Source: Lonicera japonica
Taxonomy: Eukaryota; Streptophyta; Magnoliopsida; Dipsacales; Caprifoliaceae
NCBI GenBank assembly: GCA_021464415.1
Contig: CM038465.1
Location: 26,360,990-26,424,989, forward strand
DNA: 64,000 nucleotides
Direction of reading: 5' to 3'
The notes below the pieces were generated by a model that ran no database searches, was not told the DNA's origin, and was given only the letters and a program-made list of their open reading frames with translations. The translations under genes and the position numbers were made by a program. Of this stretch, positions 29,880 to 51,139 are shown in pieces. Numbering within the stretch: position 1 is the first letter of the stretch; each line of letters opens with the position of its first letter.

Positions 29880-30364
29880 TTCCCTCCTGTAAACTAGTTC
29901 CCAGCTGCAACTAGTTTAATTCAGGGACTTGGCAAACTCCCAACTGACTCTGAAACCTTTGAAACACATCCAATGTGAGGGGCTTTGTCATCACATCTGC
30001 CTGCTGATCTTGTGTTCCACAATAAACCAACTCAAACTACTCCTTCTCATGTGAGATCACAAAGAAAATGAAAGCGCACATCAATGTGCTTACTTCGACC
30101 ATGTAACACAAGGTTTTTTGATAGTTTAATTGTGGAACTATTATCACAAAGGATTGTAGTACACTTACTTTGCTCCAGACTTAGTTTCTCAAGTATCCTC
30201 TTTATCCAAATAGTTTGGCTAGCACAAGCAGCTGCAGCCACAAACTCTGCTTCGGTGGTTAAAAGTTCGACTATAGGTTGTTTTCTTGAGGACCAGGAAA
30301 TTGCTCCATATCCCAACATGAAGACATAGCCTGCTGTGCTTTTTCTGTCTTCTAGATCAGTTGC
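29880..30364 (-). pseudogene. copia RNase H C-terminal part
   Basis: Minus-strand coding remnant of Ty1/copia pol (Tork/Tnt1-like by motif). It reads DLEDRKSTAGYVF then SRKQPIVELLTTEAE, HGRSKHIDVRFHF. A stop follows at 30047, after which a shifted frame still shows the family tail (DQQADVMTKPL). It continues the copia fragment that resumes at 49261; the TAT element lies between. Confidence 0.85.
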
Positions 30365-30497
30365 TGTAGACACCCCGATCCGTGACCCCCGCAAGAACCC
30401 TAACGACCTTCGAGAACTGCTGTTTCTGGAGTCCGGGACCCACCCGAAACTGCCCCGGGAGCGTTTGTTGGCCAAACAAACCTGTTTTTAAGGGAAA

Positions 30498-30802
30498 TGT
30501 CGCACGACATTCAAGTATGTCGCACGACAAATGCCTTTTTGGGGGACATGTCGCGCGACAAACACCCCACCACGTAATCATTAAAGTAAATGTCGCGCGA
30601 CAGTCAAGATTGTCGCGCGACATGCAGCCAAATGTCGCGCGACATATGCCCCACCACATCATCATTAAAAAACATGTCGCACGACATGCGCCCCACCATT
30701 TCATCATTAAAGTAAATGTCGCGCGACAGTCAAGTTTGTCGCGCGACAATCCTACCTTTTGGGGAACATGTCGCGCGACATACAGCCAAATGTCGCGCAA
30801 CA
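30498..30802 (+). promoter_or_regulatory. Palindrome array in 5' LTR promoter (11 sites)
   Basis: Sites start at 30498, 30518, 30549, 30591, 30611, 30633, 30675, 30718, 30738, 30769 and 30791. Consensus TGTCGCGCGACA, a perfect 12-bp palindrome with three CpGs. Variants read TGTCGCACGACA (three) and TGTCGCGCAACA (last), each one CG-to-CA step away. Three pairs are spaced exactly 20 bases start to start, two more 22, about two helical turns. The last site ends 15 bases before the TATA box. Confidence 0.85.
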
Positions 30803-30817
30803 TACACCTTTTCAGCA

Positions 30818-30827
30818 CTATAAATAG
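30818..30827 (+). promoter_or_regulatory. 5' LTR TATA box
   Basis: CTATAAATAG, about 450 bases into the LTR, the expected place for the U3/R promoter; the same sequence is kept in the 3' LTR at about 47964. Confidence 0.7.
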
Positions 30828-32142
30828 GCCAACACCTCCCAAGGTTTAAAGACACCAACAGCAGAGCAAAAAACAGCAGTCTTAGAGCAGAGTTGCGGGT
30901 TTATGATCTGATTTTCTGACCTTTCGTCAAGTATTTTATATTATCGTCTTATTTTTGAAGAATTATCGAATCTATTCTCGACACTCGACGTGTCCAGTCT
31001 CGGGAATCGAATTCTCGGAAATATCTGAAGAAGGAGAAGATTATTATCGCCGGAGATCTCTCTGCCGTATTATATTCTCTTTCTTATTATTATTCTCGTC
31101 AGGAAGGTAAATAAAGTTTCTTCTAGTAATTAAATTAGATATTTGACCTGACCGGGAAGGTAAATAAAGGTCGATCCCCGCGACCTGACCGGGCAGGTCG
31201 ATCCCCGTTCTAGTAAGCGAAGTGGCAATATGGTTGTGCTAGGTTTCTAACGCGCTGGAAAATCAGGTTTGTCTGTATACTTTATTTCTGTTGTTTTGTC
31301 CACGTTTTATTTGAATAAACTTATTGCCAAGTAATAAATAGTCTACCATCTTCAGAATAAAAGACCCTGATAAAACCATTTGTAAAACCAGAAGAGTAAG
31401 TAGATTATCGTCCGGATAAAATTCTGTTTTCAAAACCCGGACTGATAAAACTTATCTAGGAATTAAAATCAACATATCCTGTCTTCTCTATAGACTGTGA
31501 CGTGTCTAATAATTCTCCTCAAAGAGTTCTGATTCCACATTAAATTAGTTCCAATACAAGATCCGAACTTTTACAAAAGTAATCACAACACGAGAAAACC
31601 GTCATTCTCTGAGGAAATAATACGGGACACTCTTTCAAAATAAAAGGTTCTTTTATCATTTGTATTTACATCTTTCAATAATAAAAACATCGGATCTCGG
31701 AACACAAAGGTTTCTACCCCTTTCCCGTTTTCCCCCAAAAATTAGGGTTTTCATTTAAAAAAAAGTAGACTGTCAGTAAAAGCATCCAAGTTTTTCAACA
31801 TAGAATAAACATATAAGACCACTAGAGACCGAAAGGGCGGAATGGGTGCTTAACACCTTCCCAAACCGTAATATAGTTCCCGAACCCTATAGAATCCTGG
31901 TTTCGTAGACAAACGTGTAAAGAAAGGCTTATATGTAGCCTTTTCTCTTACACGACCCCTTTTGTCCGTTTTCTCGTAAAACGTACTGGCGACTCTGAGC
32001 GAATCCCTTTGCATCTAGAATAGACGTAGGGACACCCGATATGAATCACTCTAGCAAATGGAACGACGGAATCCGTTCCGACGTTTCAGACGCCCAGCGA
32101 ACGGGGACGAGACCCGGGGGTCGCATTTGCGGATTCTCACAG

Positions 32143-32160
32143 TGGTGACTCTGCTGGGGA
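32143..32160 (+). other. Primer-binding site
   Basis: TGGTGACTCTGCTGGGGA, one base after the 5' LTR end. It starts TGG, complementary to a tRNA CCA end; I do not assign the tRNA. Confidence 0.7.
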
Positions 32161-33279
32161 CATGAGAACTAGGCTCTTATATGTGGACTTTTTGTTTATT
32201 GAATATGTTGATATGCATGCTTTTACTGCTTTCCCTACTTGCCCCCCAACGTGGTGCCTGGATTTTATTGTTGACCTGACCTAGAGGCGCATTAGAGTCC
32301 ATTCATTGACATAGACATATGTTTAGGTTTTCCCCTTTTCTGTTATATATGATTGTAAAGAAATATCTTTTTAAATAAAAATGGCGTTTTCAAAATACAC
32401 CTCGAAGATAAGATATTTGCAATTGACCTTTTGAAAAATCTTGTTTTGCACGCACTTTTACAAATCATGCATTGGTTCTACGAGTGTGAATTTACCCCGA
32501 ACCCTCGGAAGTATTATAAGTGAGTAGGGAGTTGGCTCGCTTGGGCCAACATAAACCGAAAGCATTTACTTCCACTCTCCTTGGCCAAGTACGCCCCCGA
32601 GGTATATCGAGTGACGAGAACACTCACGTACCTAGGAAGTATATCAAAAGATTCTTGCACGTACCCACCCCTGGGTATATCGCGAGGTCTTGCCAAATAG
32701 GAGGGAGCCTGAAAACCTTCACCTTGCATTACACCTGCGCTGCATATTGGAAGAGTCAAGATAGAACACTCTTATATTTTTTTATCAACCGTGAGGATTT
32801 TGTACCACATAGGGCCTTGTCATATATATCTCCCCCAGATATTGGCAAGTACGGCCGGAGGCTGACCAACCTCCGTCGTAGAAACTTACATCGAGGTTAA
32901 ACTCGTTGTGACTTTCCCCGGTACATCTCCCATGAAAAGCAACTCAAGAGGAGAGATATTCCCAATTTTCATAAAATAAAAAAATGTGTTTTTCAAAATT
33001 CGGGACGAGTAGGATAACCCAAGGAGCACTTCGCTGCCTATCCTAAAACTCCCACCGGGAATTCGCTCAAGTTGTTGTTGACGTGTCTTTATAAAACACC
33101 CGAAACTTGGTTATCATTGTTTTTCTTTTCCCGTGGTTCTTTTGGCAAAATGGGTCACATCATAGTCTTCCTTCATCTTCGCCCTTGGTTCCATCTACAG
33201 TCATCGTACGGCAACAGTCTGGAAGGTTGGGCCGGTCGGGATCACACCGGAAGATTAGTAAGACCGAGCACACCGGAAA
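32161..33279 (+). other. Leader of the TAT element
   Basis: Untranslated region between the primer-binding site and the first gag-like ATG at 33280. No conserved domain; the frames in it overlap on both strands and are not convincing. Confidence 0.55.
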
Positions 33280-34779
33280 TGGCTGATAGACGCGAGAATC
33301 CAGAGACAGATCAGAGCCTAGCCGAGGATTCTGCACCACAGCCAGATTTAGCCGAAATGTATCGTTTACTGAGGACCGTCAGCATAAGTCTAGCAAACCT
33401 CACGAATGAGCAACAGAGTACCCGGGTTCGAGTAGAAGAGTTGTCAGCCGGGCGGGTCGCGCCACCAGGGTTTGAACGACTACCACCGAATCGAGATCAA
33501 GGGTAGTCGTCGCAAGTACTTCCCCCAGTTCAAGGAACCAATCCACCTCAAACGAGTCCAGTCACCACAGGTCCCGTTCAAGCAGATCCTAACAACCCGA
33601 ATCAGTGGACCCCAGATTTAGGCCCTACCTATCAGCAACCAGAGCCACCCATCGTCTGGCCACAACCCCAACCGGGCATTGATCCTCAATACCAGCCATG
33701 GCCACAAGTTCTCGCAAGGCCTATTCCACCTCCGATCCCAGTAGCCCCTCCTCATGAATACCCGGACATCAATCGACTTTGGGCAGTGTATGCGAAATCG
33801 GTTATAGCTCGGGAACAGCCCGATGAGGTGTCAAGAGAGAGTGAAGAAATGAAGAAAACTGAAAGAGCAGATGAGGGTTTTGCAAAGGGGGGTTTCTCTA
33901 ATAAAAGGGGCAGACGAGATCACAGATATGAATGCATTCTCCCTTTATCCAGAAGCCAGACTACCTCAGGGATTCAAGCTTCCTTCCATCACCAAATTTA
34001 CAGGGACCACGCCCCCGAAAACTCACCTCCAATCATACATCAGATCCATGCAAGTGTCGGGTTGTGGAGAACCGGAATTAGCTCAGGCCTTTCACATGAC
34101 TCTCACGGGGGCCACCCTGAGATGGTTTTTTGATCTCGAGAGACACCACACGAAGACTTGGGGAGATATTGTCAAAGAGTTCATGAATAAATATGGGTCC
34201 AATGAAGATTTGGAAATTACTCGCAAGCACCTGGAAATGACCAAGCAAGGCGAGAAAGAAAGTTTCAGCGATTTCGTCACACGCTGGAGAGAGATGGCCT
34301 CCCAAATGTCCAAACGGCCTGATGAAGAAGAACAGTTGGAAATCATACAGAGGAATTTTACTCCAGCAGTATTAAGTTGTATGGGAAAGCACGTATTCCC
34401 ACATTTCAGGGCCTTGTTAAGCATGGGGTCACAAGTGGAAGAAGAGTTGGCTAAGAAAGCCGAGAATGATACCAAGAAAGCCTCATACGTAGGAAGAAAG
34501 ATGGCCACTCCAACTGTTAACCAAATAGGCTCATACCCGTATCAACAAAATCCGTTTCAGCAGCCACAACAAGCATCTTCGATGAATTGGCCCGCACAAG
34601 GAGATTCTTCGAGCACTGAAGTTAGGAAAAAAAGGAATTTCTGTACTATTCCCACTTCCCTAGTCAAAAGCTTGGAATTACTCCGAAAAGCTGGACTGAT
34701 CACCCCGCTCAACCCACGTCCTCCACCGAGTCCTATTCCCGTTACTTGGAGAATGAATGAAAACTGTGCATACCATTAA
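33280..34779 (+). pseudogene. gag of the TAT element (broken)
   Basis: Capsid-type protein that would package element RNA. It starts MADRRENPETD at 33280, then a Pro/Gln-rich stretch, then the retrotransposon gag domain (about 33960-34400) with LRWFFDLERHHTKTWGDI and FSDFVTRWREMASQM, and a zinc-knuckle start CAYH near the end. Breaks: TAG at 33504-33506, a frame change between about 33840 and 33920, and TAA at 34777-34779 inside the knuckle (the frame continues with GHDTERC). Confidence 0.85.
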
Positions 34780-37131
34780 GCAGCAGGCCATGACACGGAA
34801 CGCTGCTTGGCTCTTCGTCACCGTATTCAGGACCTCATCGAAGCTGGAACCATTCCCGCACCCGGCGGGCCCAATGTTACCAACAACCCCCTTTCGAACC
34901 ATGCTCCACCTGCAGGAATTAATGCCTTGACCACTGATGAAGAAGGCTTTGACCCCATAGGACTCATTCAAGATGATCCAACCTACCAGGCACCCGTTGT
35001 GTTGCTAGCAAAAGCTCAAGTGGCCCCAGGCCTCAATCCGATAATCGACCAATGGATGGCTAAGATGAGCTTCCTACCCGGGCAGGGTTGTTTAGGAAAG
35101 GACAACCAAGGGATTTCACAACCGCTTGCAATCAAGACCAATCCCGAAAAAGCTGGGATAGGATGGATCCAAGACAGGGAGAAACAACCATGGAAGCCCC
35201 GAGGCTTCCCTAAGGAGACAATCTGTATGACAGAAACCTCCCCCAAAGCCTTCAGTTGGTCGACAGAACCAGAATCATCGGAAGTCTCAGAGGGATCAGA
35301 CTCAGCATCCCTTTGGATACAGCAAATCACCCGGTCAGGAAGGGTGTATCAGCCACCGCTAATGGATGCCGAGAAAACACCATCTCCTAAGGAAGTAGGA
35401 GAAGATCGAGTACTGGAACAGTTGAAGAAAACCCAGGCCCACATCACCATTTGGGGCCTCTTGGTTGCCTCCAAACCGCACAGGACCGCTTTCATCAAAC
35501 TCCTTGATAAGGCTGTCATATCGCCAGACTCTACGCCCGAACAACTGCCAAACATGATTGGGTCACTTACCGTTCAAAGAAGTTTGTCATTTTCAGATGA
35601 AGACTTATCTCCATTGGGGAAGAAACACAGTCTGGCTCTCCACATCACTGTTCGGACTCGAGAAAAAATCCTGCCGCAAGTTCTCATTAATAATGGGTCG
35701 ACTATAAATGTTTGCCCCCTGAAGACCGCCAGATGCCTGGGTATATTGGATTCATAACTTTCTCCATCAGCTGTAACCGTCAGGGCCTATGACAACACCA
35801 GGAGGGCCGTTCTAGGTTCTCTGAAGCTTGATCTCATGGTTGGTCCCGGAAGCTTTCCGGCCGACTTTCAAATCATAGACATTCCCTCCAGTTTTAACTT
35901 GCTATTGGGAAGGGCATGGCTACACGACATAGGAGCACTCCCCTCCTCCTTACACCAGAAGATCAAAATACTATTCGAAGGGAACGTAATCACCATCCAA
36001 GGAGATCCTGAAAGGACCTTGGCAGATCTGGAGTTACCTGTATTGGGCATTGGGAGTCAAAGCATACAGTTGGGAGGCTTTTCTTATGAGCCTCAAGTAC
36101 AAGCTCTCACCACCTAGAGAATCGAGTATCTACCCCCTGACAATATCCCCGGTCTCAGCACCAAGATCACAAAGATGCTGAAAAAGATGAAATACTTACC
36201 CGGAGCCAGTCTGGGAATGGGACAGCTCGGATTGCTTCAAGCCTTGGAACCGGTAACGAGGTACGAAAGGGAAGGTTTGGGTTACCAACACACCAAGAAA
36301 GACGATCAAGAGAATAGGAGCCGAGGGCATCAGTATCCGAGTTTTAGCTATCTGAACGGGTTTTTTGTCAAGGAAGGAGAATACTTCCCTTTTTGCGGCT
36401 TTCAAGAGCCATGGAGAAACAGCGATGGAGATAGCCTTCCGGGATGGGAAATCTTTTATGAAGAGGACCTTTATCTCAAAGAAAGTGTCATACACAGCTT
36501 CTCTACCAAGTTAACGATCGGACTAGAGGAAGAAATTGAAGACAAGGAAGATGAGGAGGAGGAATTGATCGGGGATCTCTTCGACATCATGGCTCTAGGG
36601 GATGACGAGCCAAGAGACAACCCGGTACATTTGATACACGCAGACCCAGACTATCAGGAAAAAGGGGGAAATAGTGAAATTGTAAGGGTGAAAGATAAGA
36701 GTGAGGGTAAGGTTAGGAATGAGTCACTCCTAAATTTACTTTTCAAACTTGTACCTGTAAGCACTGTTATTAATGAGGAAGACTCTATTTTGCGTTATCC
36801 TATTAGTTCCAATTTTGTAATTGCTTATATGGAGTTGGAAAGACTAAATGAACACCCTGAACGGGAGGAACAGCGCATACGAAGTGAAGAGGGGGATACT
36901 CTTATAATTAATCTGGGGACAGGGGAGGAAAAGAAAAAAGTTCGTATTGGGGCAAGTCTAAGTAAAGCGGAAAGAGAGGAATTTACACAAACTCTGAATG
37001 AGTATGTGGATGTCTTCGCCTGGTCCTATGCTGACATGCCAGGTTTGAACAGTCAGATAGTCATGCACGAGATACACACCAAGCCAGAATTCAGACCCGT
37101 CAAACAAAAGTTGAGAAAACTTACGCCATAA
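34780..37131 (+). pseudogene. Gag-pol linker and protease region of the TAT element (broken)
   Basis: Same frame as the gag domain. It holds a retropepsin-like segment: VLINNGSTINVCPLK around 35680-35730, where the family has D in place of the first N of NNGS, so the catalytic Asp appears changed by one G-to-A step; and a flap/hydrophobic end FNLLLGRAWLHDIGA near 35900. A G-patch-like LPGASLGMGQLG follows at about 36195, common in TAT protease-RT linkers. In-frame stops: TAA 35755-35757, TAG 36115-36117, TAA 37129-37131. Confidence 0.78.
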
Positions 37132-38013
37132 TGGTCCCTGAAAGTAAAAGAAGAGGTGATGAAGCAACTGAGTGTGGGGTTCTTGCGGGTGATCAAGTAC
37201 CCTTTATGGTTAGCCAACATTGTGCCCGTTCCAAAGGCAAATGGGAAGGTCCGCATGTGTGTGGATTATCGAGATCTCAATAAAGCCTGCCCAAAAGATG
37301 ATTTTCCATTGCCCAACATCGACTTGATAATAGATAATACTGCCAACCATGCATTAAAGTCATTTGTGGACGGTTTTGTCGGGTATAATCAGATCAAGAT
37401 GCACCCAGATCACCAAGAGAAAACGGCGTTTATCACTCCATGGGGAACCTACTGCTACACCATTATGCCATTCGGGTTGAAGAACGCCGGGGCAACGTAT
37501 CAGAGGGCAGCTACCGCCATCTTCCACGACATGATTCACAAAGAAGTAGAAGTGTATGTGGACGACATGATAATCAAGTCAAAAGAAAGAGAAGGCCATG
37601 TACCAGCTTTACGAGCCTTTTTTGACGGCCTCCGCCAGTACCAGATGAGACTCAATCCGCAGAAATGTGTGTTCGGGGTGACCAAAGGAAAACTCCTAGG
37701 CTATGTTGTCAGTAAGAAGGGAATCGAGGTAGACCCTGCCAAGGTTCGAGCTATCCAAGAAATGCCCGAGCCTCGTACCGAGAAAGAAGTCCGGGGATTT
37801 TTGGGTAATTTGCAGTACATCAGTAGGTTCATCTCTCAGCTCACTCAGACATGCGAGCCCATCTTCAAACTCTTGAGAAAATCTTCACCAGGAGAATGGG
37901 ACGATCAGTGCCAAGAAGCTTTTGATAGAATCAAAGAGTATCTCTCCAACCCCCCCAGTGTTAGCCCCACCACAGACAGGATTGCCACTAATTCTATACC
38001 TAACCGTCACTGA
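37132..38013 (+). pseudogene. Reverse transcriptase and start of RNase H of the TAT element
   Basis: Copies element RNA into DNA. Motifs in order: VPVPKANGKVRMCVDYRDLN, SFVDGFVGYNQI (first catalytic Asp), MPFGLKNAGATYQR, YVDDMI (catalytic Asp pair), LLGYVVS. All catalytic Asp are present. The frame is lost at a run of seven C (37950-37956), one base more than the frame needs, just where the gypsy RNase H begins. Confidence 0.9.
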
Positions 38014-40168
38014 TTCGGCTGCAGGAGCTATGCTAGCCCAACATATGATTGATACCCGAAAAGAGCAAGCCATCTACTACATCAATAAGAAATTATCCCC
38101 ATTTGAGATGAACTACACGCCATTGGAGAAGTCATGCACCGCTCTCGTCTGGGTAACGCAGAAATTACGGCACTACATGTTAGTCTTTCCAGTCATCCTG
38201 GCATCACGAATTGATCCGCTAAAATACCTTTTCGAGAAATCAGCTCTCTCAAATCGTATGGCAAAATGGTTATTCATGCTCTCCGAGTTTGACATCACTT
38301 ACATGACCCAGAAGGCAGTCAAAGGCAAGATCATAACTGATTACCTGGCCCACAATCCAATATTGGGGGACATGCTAGAAGAAGTCGAGTTCCCCGATGA
38401 AACTATCATGAATGTCGAGATCGATGAAGACTGGAAATTATATTTCGACGGGGCCGCCAATCGAAACGGAAACGGGATAGGCATCATTTTGGTCTCTCCA
38501 GATCAAACTCACTCCCCGATATCGTATCGTCTTGATTTCTTCTGCACCAACAACATGGACGAATATGAAGCCTGCATACTCGGGTTAGAAATCGCACTCC
38601 AAAGGGGTATACAGAGAATACAGGTATACGGAGATTCGGCACTAGTGGTCCACCAAGTCCTGAAGGAATGGAAGATCAGAGATGAGAAACTAGTCCCTTA
38701 CCTCGCCCGACTGGAGGATGTCGCAGGAAAGTTCGAACATGCGGAGTTTTATTATGTCCCCAGGTCACAGAACAGTTTTGCTGACGCACTGGCAACCTTG
38801 GCATCTATGATCGATATCCCGGAGGGGATGGAAGAAATAACTCTCACAGTACAAAGGAAATCAGGACCAGCACACTGCATGGCCCTTGAGGTAGAAAATG
38901 AAAAAGAGGGGGACTCGACTACTTGGTTTTATGACATCTGGAACTTATTGAAAAATCATCTGTATCCCGAGCAAACAGATAAGAAAACGCGGGTCACACT
39001 CAGAAGGTTAGCATCCGGGTTCATACTTTGTGCTGGAAGGCTGTATAAGAGGAACTACGACGGGACTCATCTTCAATGTCTCACCGAGGAAGAGTCAGTC
39101 AAAATGATGGATCAGATACACGGAGGCGATTGCGGATCTCATATGAGCGGTCATACACTTGCCCGCAAAATCATCAGACAGGGTTATTTCTGGTCTACCC
39201 TGCAAAACGACTGCATTAACCACGTACGCCGTTGTCACAAGTGCCAAATTTATGCTAAATCCCAGAAGATTCCTCCGAAAGAGTTGTATAACATGACTGC
39301 TCCTTGGCCTTTCGCAACCTGGGGAATCGACGTCATTGGGAAGATTTCGCCCAAAGCCAGCAACGGCCATGAATTCATACTAGTGGCCATCGACTACTTC
39401 ACCAAATGGGTGGAAGCTAAGTCTTACCAGACCTTGGATGCCAAGAAAGTTGCCAGATTCATCAAAAGGAATATCGTCTGCCGGTATGGGGTCCCACACG
39501 AAATTATCTCGGACAATGGCACCCACTTCGAAGGAGAAGCTAATACAGTCATGGAAGAATACGGTATTACCCGACACAGGTCTTCACCACACAGGCCACA
39601 AACCAATGGGGCAGTTGAGGCCGCCAACAAAAATTTGAAGAATATCTTGAGCAAGATGACCGACACCTGTCGAGACTGGCCGGAGAAATTACCATATGCA
39701 TTGTGGGGATACCGCACCACTGAGAGGGTCTCTACTGGGGCAACCCCATTTTCACTTACATACGGGATGGAAGCAGTTCTCCCTGTTGAATTAGAGGTCC
39801 CCTCCCTCAGAGTAATGTTAGAGAATCAAGTTAATGAGCTGGAATGGGTAAAGGCACGTTATGACGAGCTGGCATTGTTAGATGATAAGAGATTGAAAGC
39901 CGCATATCACCACCAAGGGTATCAAAAGAGAATCGCTCGAGCATTTAACCAGAAAGTAAAGACTCGGGGTATCAATAAGGACGACATCGTGTTGAAAGAA
40001 ATTCGAGAACCAGCCAGAGACCCAAGGGGAAAGTTCGGTCAGAAGTGGACAGGACCGTACATCGTCAAAGAGATTGATACAGGGGGTGCCGCTATACTCG
40101 CTGATTTGGACAGACAGTTATTGCATTCCCCAGTCAACATGGATCGACTGAAGAAGTATTATCAATAG
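37957..40168 (+). pseudogene. Dual RNase H and integrase of the TAT element
   Basis: Long open stretch after the frameshift. It starts in gypsy-type RNase H (LYLTVTDSAAGAMLAQ), then a second plant/archaeal-type RNase H (WKLYFDGAANRNGNGIGI, MDEYEACILGLEIAL, VYGDSALVVHQV, NSFADALATLASM), then integrase: an HHCC zinc finger (H..H, RCHKCQIYAK), D in WGIDVIG, D in IISDNGTHFEG, E in NGAVEAANKNL. The C-terminus ends YIVKEI...MDRLKKYYQ with no chromodomain. The dual RNase H is the TAT signature. This part is open but is separated from RT by the frameshift. Confidence 0.92.
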
Positions 40169-40656
40169 ATGTAACATGTATAATAAGAACTACGTAAACC
40201 TGAGCCCCAACTCAAAATAGTGTTTCTAAAAAAATCAAAAGGGGAACGTAGGCAACCTGAGAAGTGACTTCAGGCCCGGTTTAAACATTATGAAGCAATA
40301 AAAGTCCTTTGTTTATTATTAAGGTGGTTCAGAACACCAGAAGTTACAAAGGAGATACATCATACAGAAAGACCTAATCCCTAGGGGTTGGCCAAGGAGG
40401 GTCCTCACTAGCCAAGTCAATTCGAGCCTCGTCCAGAATCTGGTACGCAGAGACAATGCTTTCTTCTGTAGGCTCAGAATCCATGAATCGAAACCACTCC
40501 ATCTGAAAAGGGGTCATCAATCAGCTCATCTTCAAGAGACCCCCAAAGAGAACGGATGATGTCAGCCCGGAGGGGCCTGGAAATACCGAAATAGGCAGGG
40601 TTGAACTGACGAGTCAGTCGAGCACGCCACATTCTCTCCATCGATGAAGAAATATG
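40169..40656. other. Spacer between pol and antisense gene 1
   Basis: About 490 bases between two convergent coding regions; probably holds both 3' UTRs. No gene. Confidence 0.5.
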
Positions 40657-41631
40657 CTAGGTCAAGTACTTAGACTCAGAAGAAAAGTTATGCAGGCCAA
40701 GGGGAATGCCCTGGGGAATGTTAAACTGCCGAAGAAGACGTCCTGGGAGGTAAAAGGAAGTGAACCAGAGTCCACGGAGCCGAATGTAATGCTGCCCCCC
40801 GGTACTAAGCACTATCGCCCTCAGCTTCCACCAAGGAATGTTCCACCGAATGGCCCTAGAATTCTCTGAAAACCATATCGTCCAATCAGAGGAGGACATG
40901 TTCAAGGCACCAAAGAGGGGACGACGAAAGAAGAATGTCGGGTTGTCAAGCTGAACCCCATTAAAGCCCACTGATCGAAAACGCTCCAATAGCCACATGT
41001 ATAGTAAGCGTGGACTTCCCCTGAAGAAGGGAGAAACTCCCCTTTGGACATCATCTAGGCCATTCAGAGTCTCTGCCAGAACTATGGGCACTATGGATTC
41101 CCCATTCCTTGCTTGATGGATCAAGCTCAGAATAGTTAGATTGACACGGGAGGAGCCCGTCACCAGTAGCATATCAGAAACAAGATAAATCAAGGCCGCC
41201 ACAGTACGCCCCGCACTATAAGAAGCTCTCTCCTCGTAACGACGAAAGAACCTCACCATTTTATGGAGGTCAAAAAGCCCGTCAATAATAAAACCATCAC
41301 AAGCCGCTTGGGGAATGGCTAGAAGAGCAATCAGCATGTCTCGAGGACCAATTTCTTCTATGGGAACAGCCATCGGAAGGCGAACGTCAGAATGCAATAG
41401 CCAGGAAAATTCTTCATAAGTCGGGCAGAGCTCGTCTAGTCCAAAACGGAAAAGATGATCGGCAGGACTCCAGAAGTACAGAGCGCCAAGCAAAAAGGAG
41501 AAATCTACAGGACGATGGCACCAGTTCGCTAAAGGACTGAATACACCAAAGTTCAAGCCATTCTCAGAAGATATCAGAGCATCTCGAGCTTCAACGTAAG
41601 AAAAATCAGAATTTGTGAGATAAGAGGACAT
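40657..41631 (-). CDS. Antisense gene 1: DUF7745-like protein, 324 aa
   Basis: Single-exon open frame, MSSYLTNSDFSYVEARD... to TAG at 40657, on the strand opposite gag-pol. It has no stop in 324 codons. The middle (FSFLLGALYFWSPADHLFRF followed by LCPTYEEFSWLL, then a helical stretch and SPRLLYMWLLERF) resembles the DUF7745 region found in plant retrotransposon-linked proteins and plant-mobile-domain relatives; I base this on memory of the pattern. A minus-strand TATA (41680-41671) and two palindromes lie just upstream. Function unknown; no catalytic residues can be named. Confidence 0.7.
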   Translation of the reverse strand: MSSYLTNSDFSYVEARDALISSENGLNFGVFSPLANWCHRPVDFSFLLGALYFWSPADHLFRFGLDELCPTYEEFSWLLHSDVRLPMAVPIEEIGPRDMLIALLAIPQAACDGFIIDGLFDLHKMVRFFRRYEERASYSAGRTVAALIYLVSDMLLVTGSSRVNLTILSLIHQARNGESIVPIVLAETLNGLDDVQRGVSPFFRGSPRLLYMWLLERFRSVGFNGVQLDNPTFFFRRPLFGALNMSSSDWTIWFSENSRAIRWNIPWWKLRAIVLSTGGQHYIRLRGLWFTSFYLPGRLLRQFNIPQGIPLGLHNFSSESKYLT

Positions 41632-41670
41632 TGTGAGAAAGGTGTAAGGATGAAGGAAGGAAGATGGGTG

Positions 41671-41680
41671 TATTTATAGC
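41671..41680 (-). promoter_or_regulatory. TATA box of antisense gene 1
   Basis: Minus strand GCTATAAATA, 40-50 bases upstream of the ATG at 41631, almost the same as the LTR TATA (CTATAAATAG). Confidence 0.6.
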
Positions 41681-41705
41681 AAAAAAGAGGACTCCTGCAC
41701 CTGTT

Positions 41706-41749
41706 TGTCGCGCGACAAACCCATGTCCAGGAGGGATTGTCGCGCGACA
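41706..41749 (-). promoter_or_regulatory. Two palindromes upstream of antisense gene 1
   Basis: Perfect TGTCGCGCGACA at 41706-41717 and 41738-41749, 26 and 58 bases upstream of the TATA box on the minus strand; same motif as in the LTRs. Confidence 0.8.
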
Positions 41750-42076
41750 AACTCCCTTGGTGTTGCTTTGTTTTGAGTTTTTCTTACACGTAAGAGTCGG
41801 TTTTGCTAAAAAATCCACTTTTATATGCATTTGTGCTGACTTTGTTCTTTTGCAGATAACTTCAGTAGCATCACAAAGGTACGATTCCTATTTTATCGGT
41901 CCACGTAATTTATTTTTTCATCATCAGATAAATAAATGCGTAACATTAGACACAATTAAAGATTTTTTATATATAAAACCAATAAAAGAACAGTTTTCTG
42001 CAAAAACCCTGTCTAAAAGTCTAAAAAAATAAAAAACTACATATTTGTCAGGACTAACTAAATACAGGAAGGAAAG
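41750..42076. other. Spacer between the two antisense genes
   Basis: About 330 bases, AT-rich, upstream of antisense gene 1 and downstream of the stop of antisense gene 2. No gene. Confidence 0.45.
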
Positions 42077-45000
42077 CTAATCTAATCGGGAGCGTTTGGA
42101 CACACTCCCACTGTCACCCGAGCCCTCCTCGGGAGTAGGATCGACCTCTGGGACGCCCTGAGCAGAAGGAGCTGCTACCTGCGAAGGCCCTGTCGGCTGG
42201 ACCGGAGCCGTGGACCGGATCACCGAGGACCGTGACCGCCTGGAAGTCCGGCTACTACTCCTCCGAGACTCAGTCCGAATGCGAGAGGAAGACAGAGGGT
42301 CATCTGCCCGCAAGGAAACGTCGATCGCCCTCTGATAGTCCAGCATGTATGTCGTAGGGTTTTGACCAACGTACTGAAGCAGGTTCCAGCTATAAAGGTA
42401 CTGGGAATGCCAAGCCCGTAGATCTGCCACTCGGACGCTCACCCGCTGAAAAGAAAAGAAAGAAGAATCAGCACCAATAAAATAAGTAAGCATGGATATG
42501 AAAAAATATCGAGGAAAGAAAAGTACATACCTCATCATCGGAACGGCCACCCAGGTAGTCAAACGTGTCTCCAGGGAGAGGATACTCGGGCACCGTATAT
42601 CGACGCAAGCCAGCTCCGACATAAGATAAGTCCCGAGGAAGTCTCGGCAAATCTATCGAATGAATGGACGAACTCATCGGCATAGCAGCAGACGTAGACC
42701 CACCCCCCTCATGAATCGGGAACAAAGGAGGACGAGAAGACGAGCCACCAAGACCTGTAGATCTGACCGGAGGACCCTTGGCAGCAGACGGAAGGGGAGT
42801 CAGCGTGGCATAAGTACGAACTCCCGGAGGGTCCATAACGGTCGTCGCCCTCAGAGGCGGGACCCCACTAGAAACAGCAGCAGCAGCAGCAGATGGGGTC
42901 CGCCCAAACTGCTCGTAATCAACCCCGAAGTCTGCAGACTCCCAGGACCGCTCGGGAAAATCACCTCCCCCTCTCTCAGCAGGCTGCCCCTCTCCAGGTG
43001 TGGTCTGAGACGGCTGTTCTGGAACCGCCGCTGTCGCATCTCCCTCGCCACCCTCGGGCCTATCATCACCACCCCCGGGTCCATCATCACCTCCCTCGGC
43101 AGCAGCAGGGACGTCCCTCTCGCCATTAGGATCATCATCATCAGAGTCCAAAATGTTATCCCTCTGATCAGGGATAGGCGGCAAATAACTAGGGACCGTC
43201 CTGGACAAGTGAGTCTGCCCTCGTATGTAGTTGGGATCGCCTCCCAACGCCTGGTACCTCTCATAGAAGACCCGTCCCCGAGTCCCCTTCGGCTCCCTCA
43301 TCAGATAGCGGGCAGCGAAGACAGAATAATCCCCCTCCTCGGTGAACGTCTGGAAACCGAGTCCGTCTACGAGGGCCTGTACCATCACGGGGTCGATCTC
43401 GCCTGTCCACCTCATCTGAACTGGCGGGACTAAAGGAATCCGAGGCCACTGGGCAGGTGAATGCTGGCGAATAACCCTCTCGCCCAGATAGAAGTGAAGG
43501 CCGTACTCATCCCTGATGAGTCGCCTGGTTCTCGAAGCAGTCAGAGAACGGCCATATCCAAAATGGAGATCCAGATCGCCCCAAGGGGCCCACTCAATCT
43601 GAAAAAGAAGAATAAGATTTTATGTCAGTAATTTATATTCTATTTTACTATTTATTGAAAAACAAGGATACTAAAATACTTACCTGCTCCTCCAACAGGT
43701 CGTGGACAGCAGCAGCTCCGGTCTCCCGAGTCCGGTATATATAGGGAGCCCTGTAGTTCCCCGCGATGAATCGGCGGAGAAAGGGAAACTGGTCCTCGTT
43801 CTCAACGAGGAGATCCACCTGGGCGCGACCCAGGCGGGTGTAAGCAACGAACCAACTCTGAAAAGGAAAGATAAAGAATTTCAGCAATAATCGACAGGTG
43901 ATATATGAAGGTCCAAGACAAAGACAAAAGGACTAAAGTATGTACCTCCCACAACAATGAGAAGCCCTTGAGGTTCAGGGCTAAATGGCGAGACACCTGG
44001 TCCATGGCATCATATAGGACTGCGAGAATAAAGCCGCCCCAGTCATAGTCAAACATGAGGCTGAAGTCCCGAAGATAGGGCAACCACCAAAGATGGGCCG
44101 TGTCCCCCCCACGGGCCTCGAATAGGTCATGGAGTGTCAGTAGGAGAAAGACGCGGGCATACTGCCGCGCCTCCTGACGGGTCATCGGCACCCCTGAAGC
44201 AACTAACCGAGCTCTCTCTGTGGCTAGCCGCGTAACCAAGATGCCCCGAGGAATCGTATCACCCGAACTCCGTCGCTCAGGGAACCACCCAAGTGCGCCC
44301 ACGATGCCCTCTGCTGTCAGACGCAAAGAGACGTCGATCTGAATAGGGATCCCCCCTGAACGAATCCCGGTCAGAGCAAAAAGATCAAAGGGTGTCATCG
44401 TCATCTCACCCCAGCTCCAATGGAAGGTGTGAGTAGTATCCCACCAATGGCAAGCCAGTGCCGACACCAAAACTGTCGCCCTAGAAACTCGCTCCGGGAG
44501 GGCGTCGAAGAGGGAGCCAAAAGGAGTCGCAAGGAGCAACTCCTGGACAGGGGCCGGTGCCCGTCGCCACTCCGAAGATATAGTGTTGGGAGAACCCCAA
44601 CCTCGGCCAACCCAATGCAGACAAAAGAGATATGTATATATATGAGAGATATAGGGTTATAGGGATAAATTATGTAATTTTCCAAACCTGAGGGTATTTT
44701 GGTGTAATTATGAGAGTTATAGGGTTATAAGGGTAAATTATGTAATTTTCCAAACCTGAGGGTACTTTGGTGTAATTATGAGAGATATAGGGTTATAGGG
44801 GTTGATTATGTAATTTTACAAACTTGAGGGTATTTTGGTGTAATTATGAGAGTTATAGGGTTATAGGGGTAAATTATGTAATTTTCCAAACCTGAGGGTA
44901 TTTTGGTGTAATTATGAGAGTTATAGAGTTATAGGGGTACATTATGTAAATTTTTCTAAAAGGAACCTAAAGGGTATCACAGGTAAAAAGTACGAGTTTC

Positions 45001-45356
45001 AATAAATCGGACATTATTTCTAGGTAGACATGCATACTAACATTGTTTAAAATACATGCAGGAAACGACAGAAATAATGGAACAGATAAATACACGAAAA
45101 GAAGACATACCAGAGATCGTCGGCGAATCTCGTGAGAAGCAGGCTCCATCAAGAGCCATGGAACATCCGGGACCAGAGCAGCCCGGGTAATATCTGTATA
45201 GACCACCGCCCGACCGCGGTTCACCCCATCATCATCATACCAGTCTAAGTCCTCCCAATCATCGTGATGAGGACTGCAGCGGAGAACGCCCTGAGCGTCA
45301 GTAAAGGTGACCTCTTCCTGGTCACCCTCTAATCGGTCCGGCTGTACAGGATCCAT
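42077..45356 (-). CDS. Antisense gene 2: spliced plant mobile domain protein, ~826 aa
   Basis: Five exons read on the minus strand: 45356-45111, 44569-43946, 43857-43684, 43598-42531, 42445-42077. Donors are GTATGT, GTACAT, GTAAGT, GTATGT; acceptors end in AG, the last three after clear pyrimidine tracts. Every exon is a multiple of three, so all introns are phase 0 and about 826 codons stay open. Exons 2-4 carry a plant mobile domain (PMD, as in MAIL1/MAIN): WDTTHTFHWSWGEMTMTPFD, ALTGI, LFLLLTLHDLF, YLGERVIRQ. Exon 4 then becomes Gly/Asp/Pro-rich; exon 5 ends in a Ser/Arg-rich tail and SKRSRLD. Host PMD proteins act in heterochromatin silencing and are often captured by transposons. The exon 2 acceptor (CGGAG, 44570) is the least certain. 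Confidence 0.78.
44640..44955 (+). repeat. 68-bp minisatellite in intron 1 of antisense gene 2
   Basis: About 4.5 copies of a 68-base unit containing TTATAGGG, TTATGTAATTTTCCAAACCT and GAGGGTATTTTGGTGTAATTA. It lies wholly within the first intron of the PMD gene. Confidence 0.85.
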
Positions 45357-45500
45357 CTATGAGTGAAATAAAACGAGAGAGTCGGAAAAATCGGAAAAGC
45401 AGCAAGGCTTCCGCGCTGAGAGAGAGAGAAAGAGAGAGAAGGAGAAGAGCTAGAGAGAGAAAGGGAAAGAGAAGAATGAGCTGGGATGAGCTCAGCAAGA

Positions 45501-45510
45501 CCTATATAGG
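45501..45510 (-). promoter_or_regulatory. TATA box of antisense gene 2
   Basis: CCTATATAGG, about 145 bases upstream of the ATG at 45356, leaving room for a leader of about 110-120 bases that is rich in CT on the minus strand. Confidence 0.55.
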
Positions 45511-45519
45511 GGATGAGAA

Positions 45520-45585
45520 TGTCGCGCGACAAACAGCCTCATTGTCGCGCGACAAAGGGCCTTGCCACCGAGATGTCGCGCGACA
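45520..45585 (-). promoter_or_regulatory. Three palindromes upstream of antisense gene 2
   Basis: Perfect TGTCGCGCGACA at 45520-45531, 45543-45554 and 45574-45585, the nearest only nine bases from the TATA box. Confidence 0.8.
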
Positions 45586-45589
45586 TATT

Positions 45590-46426
45590 GACCCTTCCCC
45601 TGACTTTTTGACCTTTGTCTCATTTTATCTCTTGCAGGAGGACTTCCGAGAAGCAGTTTTCGAAAAAAATTGCTAAAAACTGCACACCCAGGATGAGAAC
45701 ACGAGGAAAGATTTCCAAATCATCTCTCCGGAGAATGCGAGAACAAGATACAAAGTTTAAAAGTAATCTCTGATCTCCAAAGAAGACCGAGACCATCGAT
45801 GAGAAAAAGAAAAATATCAGGATAAGACGGGAATAGAAAAAATTGAAAGAGTAAAAAAGAGAAAGAACCGGCATGAGCGCCCAGAGCGAGCGAGAGAAAC
45901 AGAAATGCAGAGTGACAGGGAGAGCCACACCAAGAGTGACAGCTAGGCGAAACCGGCTCAGGGCTTCGTTTTGGGTGAGTAAGGCTCCTGATCGCGACAA
46001 AGGGATAAAAGGACTCCTGGTTAAAAACAGAAAAGGCCAGGAAAAGTCTTTCCCAAAAGAGGGAGGAATAAGGACATCGAAAAACAGAAAGCGATGCGGG
46101 CCCACCAATAATGAGAATCAAAAAGAAACCAGAGATCAGAGATTGACCTTTCATACAAATTTTCTTTTCAGCACGATACAGAAGAGATGGTTTGGAAAAA
46201 ACCTCGAATCATCACTCGGTGAAGAATAAGAAAAATTCGAAAACTGCTTTCCGAGGAAAGTATTTTTTCAGTCAAGAGAAAAATGAGAGTAAAACTTCAG
46301 AAAGGCATCCGGGTAAAGATTAGACCTCGAAGAGCTCTTTCCACCCTCATAAGAAATTTCCCTCTCTCACTCTAGCAATCGAAGAGAAAGATAGTCAAAA
46401 AATCCGAAGCCCTCCCCAGAGGCAAT
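45590..46426. other. Purine-rich spacer of the TAT element
   Basis: A/G-rich on the plus strand with several overlapping long frames on both strands. None shows a domain, and the bias alone explains the open frames. No gene called. Confidence 0.5.
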
Positions 46427-46826
46427 CCATTCACATAAGCCCTTTCTACAGGCAAAACATCATCCACCAGTCCTTTCTACAGGCACAAGCCCTCTCCGGA
46501 GGCAATCCATTCACATAAGCCCTTTCTACGGGCAAAACATCATCCACGAGTCCTTTCTACAGGCACAAGCCCTCTCCGGAGGCAATCCATTCACATAAGC
46601 CCTTTCTACAGGCAAAACATCATCCACAAGTCCTTTCTGCAGGCACAAACCCTCCCCGGAGGCAATCCATTCACATAAGCCCTTTCTACAGGCAAAACAT
46701 CATCCACAAGTCCTTTCTACAGGCACAAGCCCTCCCCGGAGGCAATCCATTCACATAAGCCCTTTTTACAGGCAAACCGGTCACCAAGTCCTTTCCACAG
46801 GCACAAGCCCTCTCCGGAGGCAATTT
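46427..46826 (+). repeat. 80-bp tandem repeat, five copies
   Basis: Starts at 46427, 46507, 46587, 46667 and 46747, exactly 80 bases apart. The unit contains CATTCACATAAGCCCTTTCT, ACAGGCAAAACATCATCCAC, AAGTCCTTTC and CCTCTCCGGAGGCAAT; the last copy is degenerate and runs into a TTTC microsatellite. Confidence 0.92.
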
Positions 46827-46855
46827 TCTTTCTTTCTTTCTTTCTTTTACAGGTT

Positions 46856-47340
46856 AAAAAGTCCTCCCAGAGAGGCAAGTGGGGCAAAAAGTCCTCCCAG
46901 AGAGGCACGTGGAGCAAAAAGTCCTTCCGGGGGAAGGCACGTGGAGCAAAAAGTCCTTCCGGGGGGGAGGCAAGTGGAGCAAAAAGTCTTCCCAGAGAGG
47001 CACGTGGAGCAAAAAGTCCTTCCGGGGGAAGGCAAGTGGAGCAAAAAGTCCTTCCGGGGGGAGGCACGTGGAGCAAAAAGTCCTTCCGGGGGGAGGCAAG
47101 TGGAGCAAAAAGTCCTCCCAGAGAGGCACGTGGAGCAAAAAGTCCTTCCGGGGGAAGGCACGTGGAGCAAAAAGTCCTTCCGGGGGGAGGTAAGTGGAGC
47201 AAAAAGTCCTTCCGGGGGGAGGCAAGTGGAGCAAAAAGTCCTTCCAGGGGGAGGCAAGTGGAGCAAAAAGTCCTCCCAGAGAGGCACGTGGAGCAAAAAG
47301 TCCTTCCGGGGGAAGGCACGTGGAGCAAAAAGCCCTCGAA
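46856..47340 (+). repeat. 30-33-bp tandem repeat, about 16 copies, G-box rich
   Basis: Units begin AAAAAGTCCT and come in two forms, ...CCCAGAGAGG... (30 bases) and ...TCCGGGGG(A/G)AGG... (32-33). They end GGCACGTGGAGC or GGCAAGTGGAGC. The CACGTG G-box recurs in about half the units. Open frames on both strands here are repeat artefacts. Confidence 0.93.
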
Positions 47341-47524
47341 AGAGGCAATGAGGTAACAAAAGCCCTCTCCGGAGGCAAAACCAAACACAAAGCCCTCTCC
47401 GGAGGCACTCACGAGCACCTTTTACATACACTCACTCCTTTAGAGTTCATGCGGTAGCCATGGATCATGGTCTCTTCCAGTCGCCTCAATTCCTTGCAAG
47501 CAAGGAGCTTGAGTCGAGAGGGTC

Positions 47525-49260
47525 TGTAGACACCCCGATCCGTGATCCCCGCAAAAACCCTAACGACCTTCGACAACTGCTGTTTCTGGAGTCCGGGACC
47601 CACCCGAACACCCGAAACTGCCCCGGGAGCGTTTGTTGGGCAAACAAACCTGTTTTTAAGGGAAATGTCGCACGACATTCAAGTATGTCGCACGACAAAT
47701 GCCTTTTTAGGGGACATGTCGCGCGACAAACACCCCACCACGTAATCATTAAAGTAAATGTCGCGCGACAGTCAAGATTGTCGCGCGACATATGCCCCAC
47801 CACATCATCATTAAGAAACATGTCGCACGACATGCGCCCCACCATTTCATCATTAAAGTAAATGTCGCGCGACAGTCAAGTTTGTCGCGCGACAATCCTA
47901 CCTTTTGGGGAACATGTCGCGCGACATACAGCCAAATGTCGCGCGACATACACCTTTTCAGCACTATAAATAGGCCAACACCTCCCAAGGTTTAAAGACA
48001 CCAACAGCAGAGCAAAAAACAGCAGTCTTAGAGCAGAGTTGCGGGTTTATGATCTGATTTTCTGACCTTTCGTCAAGTATTTTATATTATCGTCTTATTT
48101 CTGAAGAACTATCGAATCTATTCTCGACACTCGACGTGTCCAGTCTCGGGAATCGAATTCTCGAAAATATCTGAAGAAGGAGAAGATTATTATCGCCGGA
48201 GATCTCTCTGCCGTATTATATTCTCTTTCTTATTATTATTCTCGTCAGGAAGGTAAATAAAGTTTCTTCGAGTAATTAAATTAGATATTTGACCTGACCG
48301 GGAAGGTAAATAAAGGTCGATCCCCGTTCTAGTAAGCGAAGTGGCAATATGGTTGTGCTAGGTTTCTAACGCGCTGGAAAATCAGGTTTGTCTGTATACT
48401 TTATTTCTGTTGTTTTGTCCACGTTTTATTTGAATAAACTTATTGCCAAGTAATAAATAGTCTACCATCTTCAGAATAAAAGACCCTGATAAAACCATTT
48501 GCAAAACCAGAAGAGTAAGTAGATTATCGTCCGGATAAAATTCTGTTTTCAAAACCCGGACTGATAAAACTTATCTAGGAATTAAAATCAACATATCCTG
48601 TCTTCTCTATAGACTGTGACGTGTCTGATAATTCTCCTCAAAGAGTTCTGATTCCATATTAAATTAGTTCCAATACAAGATCCGAACTTTTACAAAAGTA
48701 ATCACAACACGAGAAAACCGTCATTCTCTGAGAAAATAATACGGGACACTCTTTCAAAATAAAAGGTTCTTTTATCATTTGTATTTACATCTTTCAATAA
48801 TAAAAACATCGGATCTCGGAACACAAAGGTTTTTACCCCTTTCCCGTTTTCCCCCAAAAATTAGGGTTTTCATTTAAAAAAAAGTAGACTGTCAGTAAAA
48901 GCATCCAAGTTTTTCAACATAGAATAAACATATAAGACCACTAGAGACCGAAAGGGCGGAATGGGTGCTTAACACCTTCCCAAACCGTAATATAGTTCCC
49001 GAACCCTATAGAATCCTGGTTTCGTAGACAAACGTGTAAAGAAAGGCTTATCTGTAGCCTTTTCTCTTACACGACCCCTTTTGTCCGTTTTCTCGTAAAA
49101 CGTACTGGCGACTCTGAACGAACCCCTTTGCATCTAGAATAGACGTAGGGACACCAGATATGAATCACTCCAGCAAATGGAACGACGAAATCCGTTCCGA
49201 CGTTTCAAACGCCCAGCGAACGGGGACGAGACCCGGGGGTCGCATTTGCGGATTCTCACA
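47525..49260 (+). repeat. 3' LTR of the TAT element
   Basis: 1,736 bases, TGTAGACACC..TTCTCACA, same order of features as the 5' LTR. It carries 10 palindromes (starts 47666, 47686, 47717, 47759, 47779, 47821, 47863, 47883, 47915, 47937), lacking one 22-base unit. A short purine-rich GAGTCGAGAGGGTC precedes it as a possible polypurine tract. Confidence 0.93.
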
Positions 49261-51139
49261 GCTGCATAGTTGCTATCTGCATAACCAACCTGGCCTTCAC
49301 ACCCTCCTTTCTTGTAAAAAACTCCAAGTCCAGTGGTTCCTTTCAAGTACCTCAGTATCCTCTTGGCTGCCGGCAAGTGTAACTCAGTTAGTTTAGCCAT
49401 GTACCTGTTAATCAAGCTTACTGCAAACATCAAGTCCGGCCTTATAGCTGTTAAGTACATTAGACATCCCACCATCTGTTTAAACAAAGTCTCATCAACA
49501 TGAACCCCATTCTCATCTTTAAAGAGTTTACAACCTGGAACAATCGGATTATGAACCGAGTTGCTATTCTGCATCCTAAATCTCTTCAATACCTCCAAAG
49601 CATACTTTCTCCGGCATAAATCCCATCCGACCTTTGCAACACTTCTATGCCAAGAAAAATTCTCATTCTTCCCAAACTGGTCATATCAAACTCACTCAAC
49701 ATGGAATTTTTAAATTTAGTAAACATCAATCATCATTGCCAGTAAATACTAAATCATCTACATATAGACTGACGATGAGAATCTTACCTCCCTTATTTGT
49801 TTTAATGAACAAAGTATGCTCACTATAACACTTCTTGAACCCTTCACTTATGAAATGTGCTTCAATACAACTGAACCAAGCTCGTGGAGCTTTTTTAGTC
49901 CATAGAGGGCCTTTTTCAACCTATATACTTTCTGTGGATTGTTCTTCTGCTCATAACCCTTAGGCTGCTCCACGTACACTTCTTCATTAAGTTCCCCAGG
50001 CAGGAAGGCTGATTTGACATGAAGTTGATAGAGAGTCCACCCTTTCTGAGCTGCTAGACCCACAATCATTCTCACTGTATCCATTCTTGCAACATGTGCA
50101 AACACTTATGTGTAGTCTACCCCTTATTGTTGCACATACTCTTTTGCCACCAAACGAGCCTAGAATTTGTCCACTTCTCCATTCTCCTTGAGTTTGGTCT
50201 TATAGACCCATTTCACTCCAATTTTCATTGCACCGGTAGGCAAATCAGTGAGTTCCCATGTGTTGTTCCTCTTTATAGCCTTTATCTCCATGTCCATAGC
50301 TCTCCTCCATTTATCATGCTTCACTGCCTCCTCAAAATACACTAGATCTGCTGAAGCAAGTAGAGCCAAATTAACATTTTTATCTTCTTCCCCCGAGAGC
50401 CTTTCCCCACTTACATAATCTCTCATCCACACCGGGGGCCTTCTAGCTCTTCCTTCATTAGAACTGGATGATTCTTCTCCATTCTCACCAGTTTGAGGAT
50501 TACCAGCTGTTTCTTCAGTGACTTCTTCTTCCCCACTCACTTCTTCATCATTCTTTTCGGTCACTAAATCATTATCCTTTTCATCACCCCATTATAGATC
50601 AGCCATTACATATTCTTCATAATTCTTATCCCAGCTCCAAGACTTGTCTTCCTCAAACACTACATCCCTACTAACTACAAACTTCTTTGCAACTGGATCA
50701 TAAAGTTTATATGCCTTAAACTCTTCACTTACTCTTAATAGTACACGTGTGAAGCTCTTTGCATCTAGCTTTGTCCTTCTCACATCAGGAATATGGACAT
50801 GTGCCACGCATCCGAACACCCTAAAATGCTCAACTGAGGGTTTGTTTCCACTACAAGCTTCCTCGGGTGTTTGATTCATTACGACCAATGTAGGACTCCA
50901 ATTTAGAACATATATTGTCCAATTTACTGCCTCTGGCCAGAAAGTCTTGGGGATCTTCTTTTTAGATAGCATGCATCGAACCATGTTCATCACTGTTCGA
51001 TTTTTCCTTTCAGCTACTCAGTTCTATTGTGAAGTGTACGCTGTAATCAATTGCCTCTTCATGCCATGTTCTGCGCAAAATTCACTAAATTCAAATGTTG
51101 TGAACTCCCCTCCTCGATCTGTCCTCAAGCATTTTATAT
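49261..51139 (-). pseudogene. copia pol remnant: integrase to RNase H
   Basis: Minus-strand remnant of the copia element whose end lies at 29597-30364. From the right: integrase C-terminal part (51139-50592; KCLRTDRGGEFTTFEF, FWPEAVNWTIYVLNW, FRVFGCVAHVHIP) with stops inside the usual PQQNG motif; then RT (50564-49848; NNTWELTDLP, WVYKTKL, YQLHVKSAFLPGEL, where the first catalytic Asp has become His); YVDD intact near 49760; then SLINRYM and GYADSNYAA up to the TAT insertion at 49261. Gag and the 5' LTR are not in the window; the right end is cut by the element starting at 51140. Confidence 0.87.

Follow-up and report, generated by a model that had tools for sequence, protein, structure and literature searches.

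The 64,000-nucleotide stretch of Lonicera japonica DNA analysed here (the window; contig CM038465.1, positions 26,360,990 to 26,424,989) contains a long terminal repeat (LTR) retrotransposon in which one CpG-rich palindrome, the 12-mer TGTCGCGCGACA, lies before the predicted promoters of the LTRs and of two antisense genes, AS1 and AS2. Alignment of the LTRs with one another placed the 5' copy at 30365..32141 and the 3' copy at 47525..49260, both on the forward strand, with lengths of 1777 and 1736 bp and 23 differences at 1729 ungapped sites (Kimura two-parameter, K2P, distance 0.0134). At a substitution rate of 1.3e-8 per site per year this would correspond to an insertion about half a million years old, and the flanking GTTGC and GCTGC are one base off a perfect target duplication. 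Between the LTRs the order is gag, pol (reverse transcriptase, RNase H, a second RNase-H-like domain, integrase) and then the two antisense genes, with forward-strand open frames for gag (33856..34779; Pfam Retrotrans_gag, 1.8e-10), for reverse transcriptase (RT; 37132..38013; RVT_1, 1.3e-28) and for RNase H, the second RNase-H-like domain and integrase together (37880..40168; RT_RNaseH 8.7e-21, RVT_3 6.3e-18, rve 2.8e-9).

The pol domains follow the gypsy order and include the second RNase H (PF00078, PF17917, PF13456 RVT_3 and PF00665), and a second, archaeal-type RNase H (aRH) is the mark of the Tat clade (PMC6317226). The same source reports a plant mobile domain (PMD) in 57% of Ogre elements and Transposase_28 in 23% of Retand elements. 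An antisense gene with a PMD, a feature typical of Ogre elements without being strictly defining, is present here as AS2 (2e-17), and Transposase_28 (PF04195), the Retand mark, gave no Pfam match at E<=1 in the five AS1 and AS2 open frames, so that the Retand lineage was rejected. By domain content the element belongs to the Tat clade of Ty3/gypsy and is probably Ogre-like, which is the best label given the PMD in AS2 and the missing Transposase_28 match.

AS1 is a PMD-like gene of 324 amino acids on the minus strand (40657..41631; Pfam PMD 1.3e-4, DUF7745 8.6e-4). Its copies elsewhere in the genome mostly have open frames of 432-449 amino acids, which indicates that the AS1 of the window ends early, and its closest relative in the protein collection is P0001 (LguiA_007186) of Lonicera macranthoides, with 89% identity and a Pfam PMD. 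Dozens of AS1 copies have equal scores and 89-90% identity to the AS1 of the window; this pattern seems to reflect the recent multiplication of a sister subfamily, one with a third AS1 site. AS2, also on the minus strand, is predicted to begin with an exon at 45111..45356 that ends at a GTATGT donor (150 of the 2,907 candidate places in the genome were scored with its 80-amino-acid query), followed by the open frame that carries the PMD (43805..44656) and by later exons at 42077..43619 (open frames 42468-43619 and 42077-42652, with provisional splice sites). Tandem repeats with 68-bp units (44634..44973, minus strand) apparently lie in an AS2 intron, and certain copies, L023 among them, have a far longer version of this array.

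Scanning the window with up to two mismatches recovered 26 palindrome sites between 30498 and 47948, 19 of them exact and 7 with one mismatch, divided between the 5' LTR (11), the region upstream of AS1 (2), the region upstream of AS2 (3) and the 3' LTR (10), with 0 sites anywhere else in the window. Dinucleotide shuffles of the window contained 0 exact palindromes and 0.53 with at most two mismatches, and together with the rescan they bear out the count, division and confinement that a sequence-only reading had described. The motif is perfectly self-complementary and holds three CpGs in its 12 bp, with a CGCGCG core. The array in the unique 3' (U3) region of the 5' LTR (30498..30802; 7 exact sites and 4 with one CG-to-CA change) ends 16 bp before TATAAATA at 30819..30826 on the plus strand, and that of the 3' LTR (47666..47948; 7 exact and 3 with one CG-to-CA change) likewise ends 16 bp before TATAAATA at 47965..47972. 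Two palindromes 32 bp apart (41706..41749) stand 27 bp upstream of TATAAATA of the AS1 promoter (41671..41678, minus strand), and three palindromes 23 and 31 bp apart (45520..45585) stand 11 bp upstream of TATATAG of the AS2 promoter (45502..45508, minus strand). All three promoters are predictions from sequence. The upstream placement matches the sequence-only reading, which had put the nearest site 9-26 bases from each TATA box; the measured distances are 16 bp in both LTRs, 27 bp at AS1 and 11 bp at AS2.

All seven variant sites are CG-to-CA changes, as had been noted earlier (TGTCGCACGACA six times and TGTCGCGCAACA once), though they represent merely four positions, three of them common to both LTRs and therefore older than the insertion and one (30791) confined to the 5' LTR. 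The changes fit the proposed decay of methylated CpG and have no bearing on methylation-sensitive binding. The LTR array consists in part of a duplicated unit. Compared with the 5' LTR, the 3' LTR is short of one 22-bp repeat and of the site that it carried, lost through a 22-bp deletion between repeats. The sequences flanking the palindrome differ among the three promoters, the motif itself being common to them.

A count over the whole genome (886,079,548 bases) gave 29,561 exact palindromes against 1 for a reversed-pattern control. Every one of the 34 site-bearing stretches that were fetched is a copy or a piece of the family to which the element in the window belongs, and the motif was not found to be frequent in unrelated DNA. 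The whole sample comes from contig C1, and in some cases adjacent stretches are pieces of one copy; its size bounds site-bearing stretches outside the family to roughly less than 10%, not to zero. The first 14 stretches, which cover 50 listed places, hold clusters in LTRs, AS1 promoters or AS2 promoters; the second 20, taken around part of the 100 listed places where G or C flanks the palindrome and classed with the motif masked, comprised 15 LTRs, 2 AS1 promoters and 3 AS2 promoters. G or C occupies only 5,574 of the 59,122 bases that flank palindromes, and this rarity gives the fuller consensus WTGTCGCGCGACAW.

Used as a protein query, the minus-strand translation of the LTR array had 1 match, to the start of an LTR in Lonicera macranthoides (P0006), and the plus-strand translation had 0 matches from 96 candidates. 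A two-site palindrome pattern returned 0 stretches from viral contigs, where a pol query gave 11 pattern matches of which 0 were confirmed. In bacterial and archaeal genomes the same two-site pattern returned eight bacterial stretches (L001-L008), each with the palindrome twice within 42 bases and two of them from one Bacteroidales genome.

The sites are retained in related copies of both antisense promoters, with 65 of 65 AS1 and 28 of 28 AS2 promoters keeping them among the copies examined, which are part of 3,982 and 2,907 candidates respectively and mostly the best-scoring; no related copy without the motif at its antisense promoter was encountered. In a set of 30 AS1 copies that includes the window, all 30 have sites and TATAAATA, and 28 have both sites at exactly 32 bp (L042 and L046 retain the proximal site only, and L056 has three sites, 32 bp apart). 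Another 19 AS1 copies all have at least two sites and 14 have three, at a spacing of 32 bp save in L078 (30 bp), with TATAAATA 26-29 bp past the sites. Twelve copies selected through P0005, which is 36% identical to AS1, all have at least one exact site, and the total of 65 is completed by L014 and L024 and by L122 and L127. For AS2 a set of 20 copies all have at least two sites and 17 have three, at spacings of 30 or 31 and 23 bp; the TATA string follows 11 bp on in 15 of the 20, the strict string being unmatched in the other 5. The AS2 total of 28 adds groups of 4 and 3 copies and the window itself, and L082 was left out of the promoter set because the stretch taken lay on the wrong flank of its gene. 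Where the TATA string was matched, its distance from the sites is characteristic of each promoter, with 15-16 bp in LTRs, 26-29 bp at AS1 and 11 bp at AS2.

Conservation within these promoters is concentrated on the motif. Across 50 AS1 copies the majority base is present in 99.0% of motif positions and 100% of TATA positions, with lower values for the leader (94%), the stretch between TATA and motif (89%), the spacer (86%) and the upstream DNA (82%); across 24 AS2 copies the figures are 97.5% for the motif, 97% for TATA, 89% for the leader, 88% upstream, 78-79% in the spacers and 70.5% between motif and TATA (gaps excluded, occupancy 0.91-1.0), all among copies that are related and that template switching can homogenise. 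The leaders are well kept too, yet the motifs stand out against the adjoining DNA. Motif CpGs are retained in 283 of 294 cells at AS1 and 193 of 210 at AS2, versus 40 of 100 (AS1) and 93 of 138 (AS2) for CpGs outside the motif. A comparison of the window with L056 spans a larger divergence, with dS in AS1 at about 1.04 and identity at 85 of the 149 four-fold sites, and the two AS1 palindromes are exact in both.

The antisense genes themselves are under purifying selection comparable to that on pol. Among 18 stop-free AS1 copies, the 151 pairs with dS >0.05 have a summed ratio of nonsynonymous to synonymous divergence (dN/dS) of 0.12, with a median of 0.16 and a range of 0.04-0.51; of the 32 loci, one had been dropped because of an alignment gap and a further 13 because they contain stops. 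Measured against the window, dN/dS is 0.05-0.15 for AS1 (4 copies) and 0.05-0.18 for the AS2 exons (8 comparisons, with 0.05-0.11 for the exon at about 43100-43601), alongside 0.08 for RT (1 comparison) and 0.05-0.11 for the RNase H and integrase frame (4).

The distances between neighbouring sites also follow a pattern. In 27 LTR, 19 AS1 and 20 AS2 copies, counting sites with at most one mismatch, all 191 gaps shorter than 60 bp measure 20-23, 30-34 or 41-43 bp, close to integer numbers of helical turns. When each of the 17 values of promoter type and gap is counted once, the cosine at a 10.5-bp period averages 0.73, which was reached by a fraction of 2e-5 of 50,000 uniform-gap draws and serves as a descriptive figure only. 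The pairs spaced 20 or 22 bases that had been singled out in the LTRs are present as part of this wider series.

In our reading the palindrome is a real, selected operator common to the predicted sense (LTR) and antisense promoters. The proposal that a common site couples them stands in so far as a shared site precedes all three and is kept by selection, and the likeness to VANDAL transposons that came with it holds for the logic only. The arrays likely serve all three promoters as a common on-switch, with proteins of the element itself as possible readers. Perfect symmetry over 12 bp points to a dimer, which would bind the site as double-stranded DNA; the short gaps, being close to whole turns, would place several neighbouring dimers on the same face of the helix; the fixed TATA distance suggests an activator that would sit next to the core promoter; and the symmetry of the site would allow one factor to serve promoters on both strands. 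In the last and weakest step AS1 and/or AS2 would bind, so that the antisense genes would activate both themselves and the LTR in a positive loop.

Confinement to one family, together with two selected genes under the same operator, favours a reader encoded by the element, and a PMD protein of the element as putative reader is the likeliest single reading, a host factor being somewhat less likely. That TGTCGCGCGACA is the operator by which the antisense-encoded PMD protein or proteins would switch on all three promoters together has, in our estimate, a little less than an even chance of being right. We put forward more tentatively the idea of a self-wired regulon, in which the two antisense PMD proteins would be activators recognising WTGTCGCGCGACAW as dimers and driving their own promoters and the LTR, thereby timing the firing of many copies, with motif recognition an ancestral task of PMD proteins later adopted by host genes of the MAIN/MAIL type. 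If true, plant retrotransposons would have their own equivalent of the LTR-mediated transactivation known from retroviruses. One study reportedly describes modules of PMD protein and DNA motif that counteract Polycomb silencing; we treat it as a lead only.

Several observations weigh against a PMD protein as reader. The PMD match of AS1 is weak and falls below the Pfam cut-off, its predicted structure is unusable (mean predicted local distance difference test score, pLDDT, 36.8), and the PMD exon of AS2 had 0 relatives at E<=1 among solved structures. The 1.2 kb upstream of four other PMD genes of the genome (L129-L132) contain neither the palindrome nor any alignment to the element; nor is there any other repeated palindrome in them save AT runs, which makes them a small negative control and not a test of coevolution. 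Direct DNA contact by the host PMD proteins MAIN and MAIL1 is not established (PMC9899485), and the copy in MORC1 of the motif associated with them, CATGCAGTTT, is unlike the palindrome (PMC9899485). Since the copies are related by descent the site counts are not independent, and the longer LTR gaps (72, 79-81 and 101-103 bp) are mostly out of helical phase, so that phasing holds within sub-clusters and not across the array. A strict helical-phase rule over the whole array is ruled out by the gaps of 79-81 and 101-102 bp, as well as by a gap of 29 bp in the AS2 copy L119, which lies outside the gap count and was scanned with at most two mismatches.

As regards the other PMD genes, the genome holds further multi-copy PMD gene families (PF10536 matches), and L132 appears by eye to be a gene of the Mutator-like element (MULE) type.

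Alternatively, a host transcription factor could read the palindrome, the element having gathered high-affinity host sites in each promoter while its PMD proteins act otherwise, for example on chromatin; we regard this as a doubtful but still substantial possibility. LTR arrays of this kind usually carry sites for host factors, the motifs of Sireviruses being mainly those of stress factors by database match (PMC2829016), and the conservation footprint would fit any binder. By eye, 8 of 32 half-sites have the sequence TTTGTCG, with which the IDD site TTTGTCGTATT begins, yet most half-sites misfit it, and IDD/ID1 as sole reader was set aside; CAMTA and ARF were also discarded as readers, as their consensus sites do not fit. 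A host factor would moreover be expected to have sites in host promoters too, yet all 34 stretches belong to the element family, a sample that leaves room for less than about 10% elsewhere.

It is unlikely that the palindromes are instead targets of the host, a beacon for methyl-CpG or small-RNA silencing in the three promoters that is kept only for an additional promoter role. Each 12-bp site does offer three CpGs, 38 of the 51 changes in decayed sites of 14 stretches are CpG transitions, as expected under methylation, and in maize Sireviruses small RNAs reportedly accumulate over palindromic motifs of the LTR (Bousios 2016, as cited in PMC10760457). Such a target should be lost by the element, yet its CpGs are kept far above other CpGs. 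A role in RNA, by mutual pairing for dimerisation or packaging, is very improbable. The copies are self-complementary and would, from the layout, all lie on the full-length transcript, yet pairing leaves their fixed distance upstream of TATA on either strand unexplained. Least probable of all are neutral by-products of tandem duplication in a young family, an origin that would suit the duplicated unit and the 22-bp deletion in the LTR array, yet the three promoters share the motif without sharing flanks, and it stays conserved against diverging spacers and four-fold sites.

Returning to an operator shared by LTR and antisense promoters, a close published parallel is found in Sireviruses, where many copies of a palindromic, CpG-rich repeat precede the TATA box of the LTR at short distance, with a reader that is not known (Bousios et al. 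2010, PMC2829016), and whose envelope-bearing members have further repeat copies at the 5' side of the extra gene (PMC2829016). The repeated palindrome array upstream of the LTR TATA box is found here as well, but Sireviruses are Ty1/copia elements with a CGG-CCG core, whereas the present element has the gypsy domain order and a CGCGCG core, and their extra gene is envelope-like and placed in sense, whereas here there are two antisense PMD genes with TATA boxes of their own. In VANDAL transposons, motif arrays private to a family are bound by that family's own VANC proteins, with demethylation shown (Hosaka et al. 2017, PMC5735166). Common to both systems are a short motif in dense, non-coding arrays near genes, turnover by tandem repeats and restriction largely to one family (here 34 of 34 stretches, and 29,561 sites versus 1); in contrast, VANDALs are DNA transposons with a non-palindromic motif (YAGTATTAY) and demonstrated binding.

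Among related retrotransposons Grande has an antisense promoter (PMC7264820), and for the antisense genes of Grande (gene23), Retand and Ogre no DNA site common to LTR and antisense promoters is described in the accessible parts of the sources (PMC7264820, PMC6317226, PMC11963269). The host PMD proteins MAIN and MAIL1 are needed for genes that carry a promoter motif (PMC7156037), and this 'DOWN' motif resembles the present case in linking PMD proteins to a short promoter motif of dependent genes (PMC7156037, PMC9899485), the difference being that those are host genes. We found no description of one operator common to LTR and antisense promoters in the literature, which was covered through titles and the openings of abstracts, with subscription papers mostly outside reach; the sequence of the motif itself led to 1 paper, on an unrelated matter. 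CpG-rich palindrome arrays before the LTR TATA box are already known from Sireviruses, and their sharing with antisense PMD genes is the new part. Reviews treat the function of antisense genes in such retrotransposons as unknown. Here two such genes are linked to the main promoter through one private, selected DNA site, which offers a concrete handle on what transposon PMD proteins do and bears on target finding by host PMD proteins, MAIN and MAIL1 among them.

The palindromes also expose an error in a public gene model. The annotated N-terminus of P0001 is translated AS1 promoter, with LSRD and VCRAT matching two palindromes 32 nt apart, and the copy L122 in the L. japonica genome encodes nearly the same N-terminal stretch (97% identity, one stop) together with both palindromes and the TATA box. 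The P0001 model thus begins about 41 codons too early and reads through the AS1 promoter, palindromes included.

Besides the repeats in the apparent AS2 intron, the element contains tandem arrays at 46327-46806 (80-bp units) and 46872-47345 (units of about 32 bp). Pieces of frame that by eye resemble Ty1/copia RT and RNase H lie on both of its flanks (30047-30487 and 49134-49685, both on the minus strand), and the element therefore appears to be nested in a copia element.

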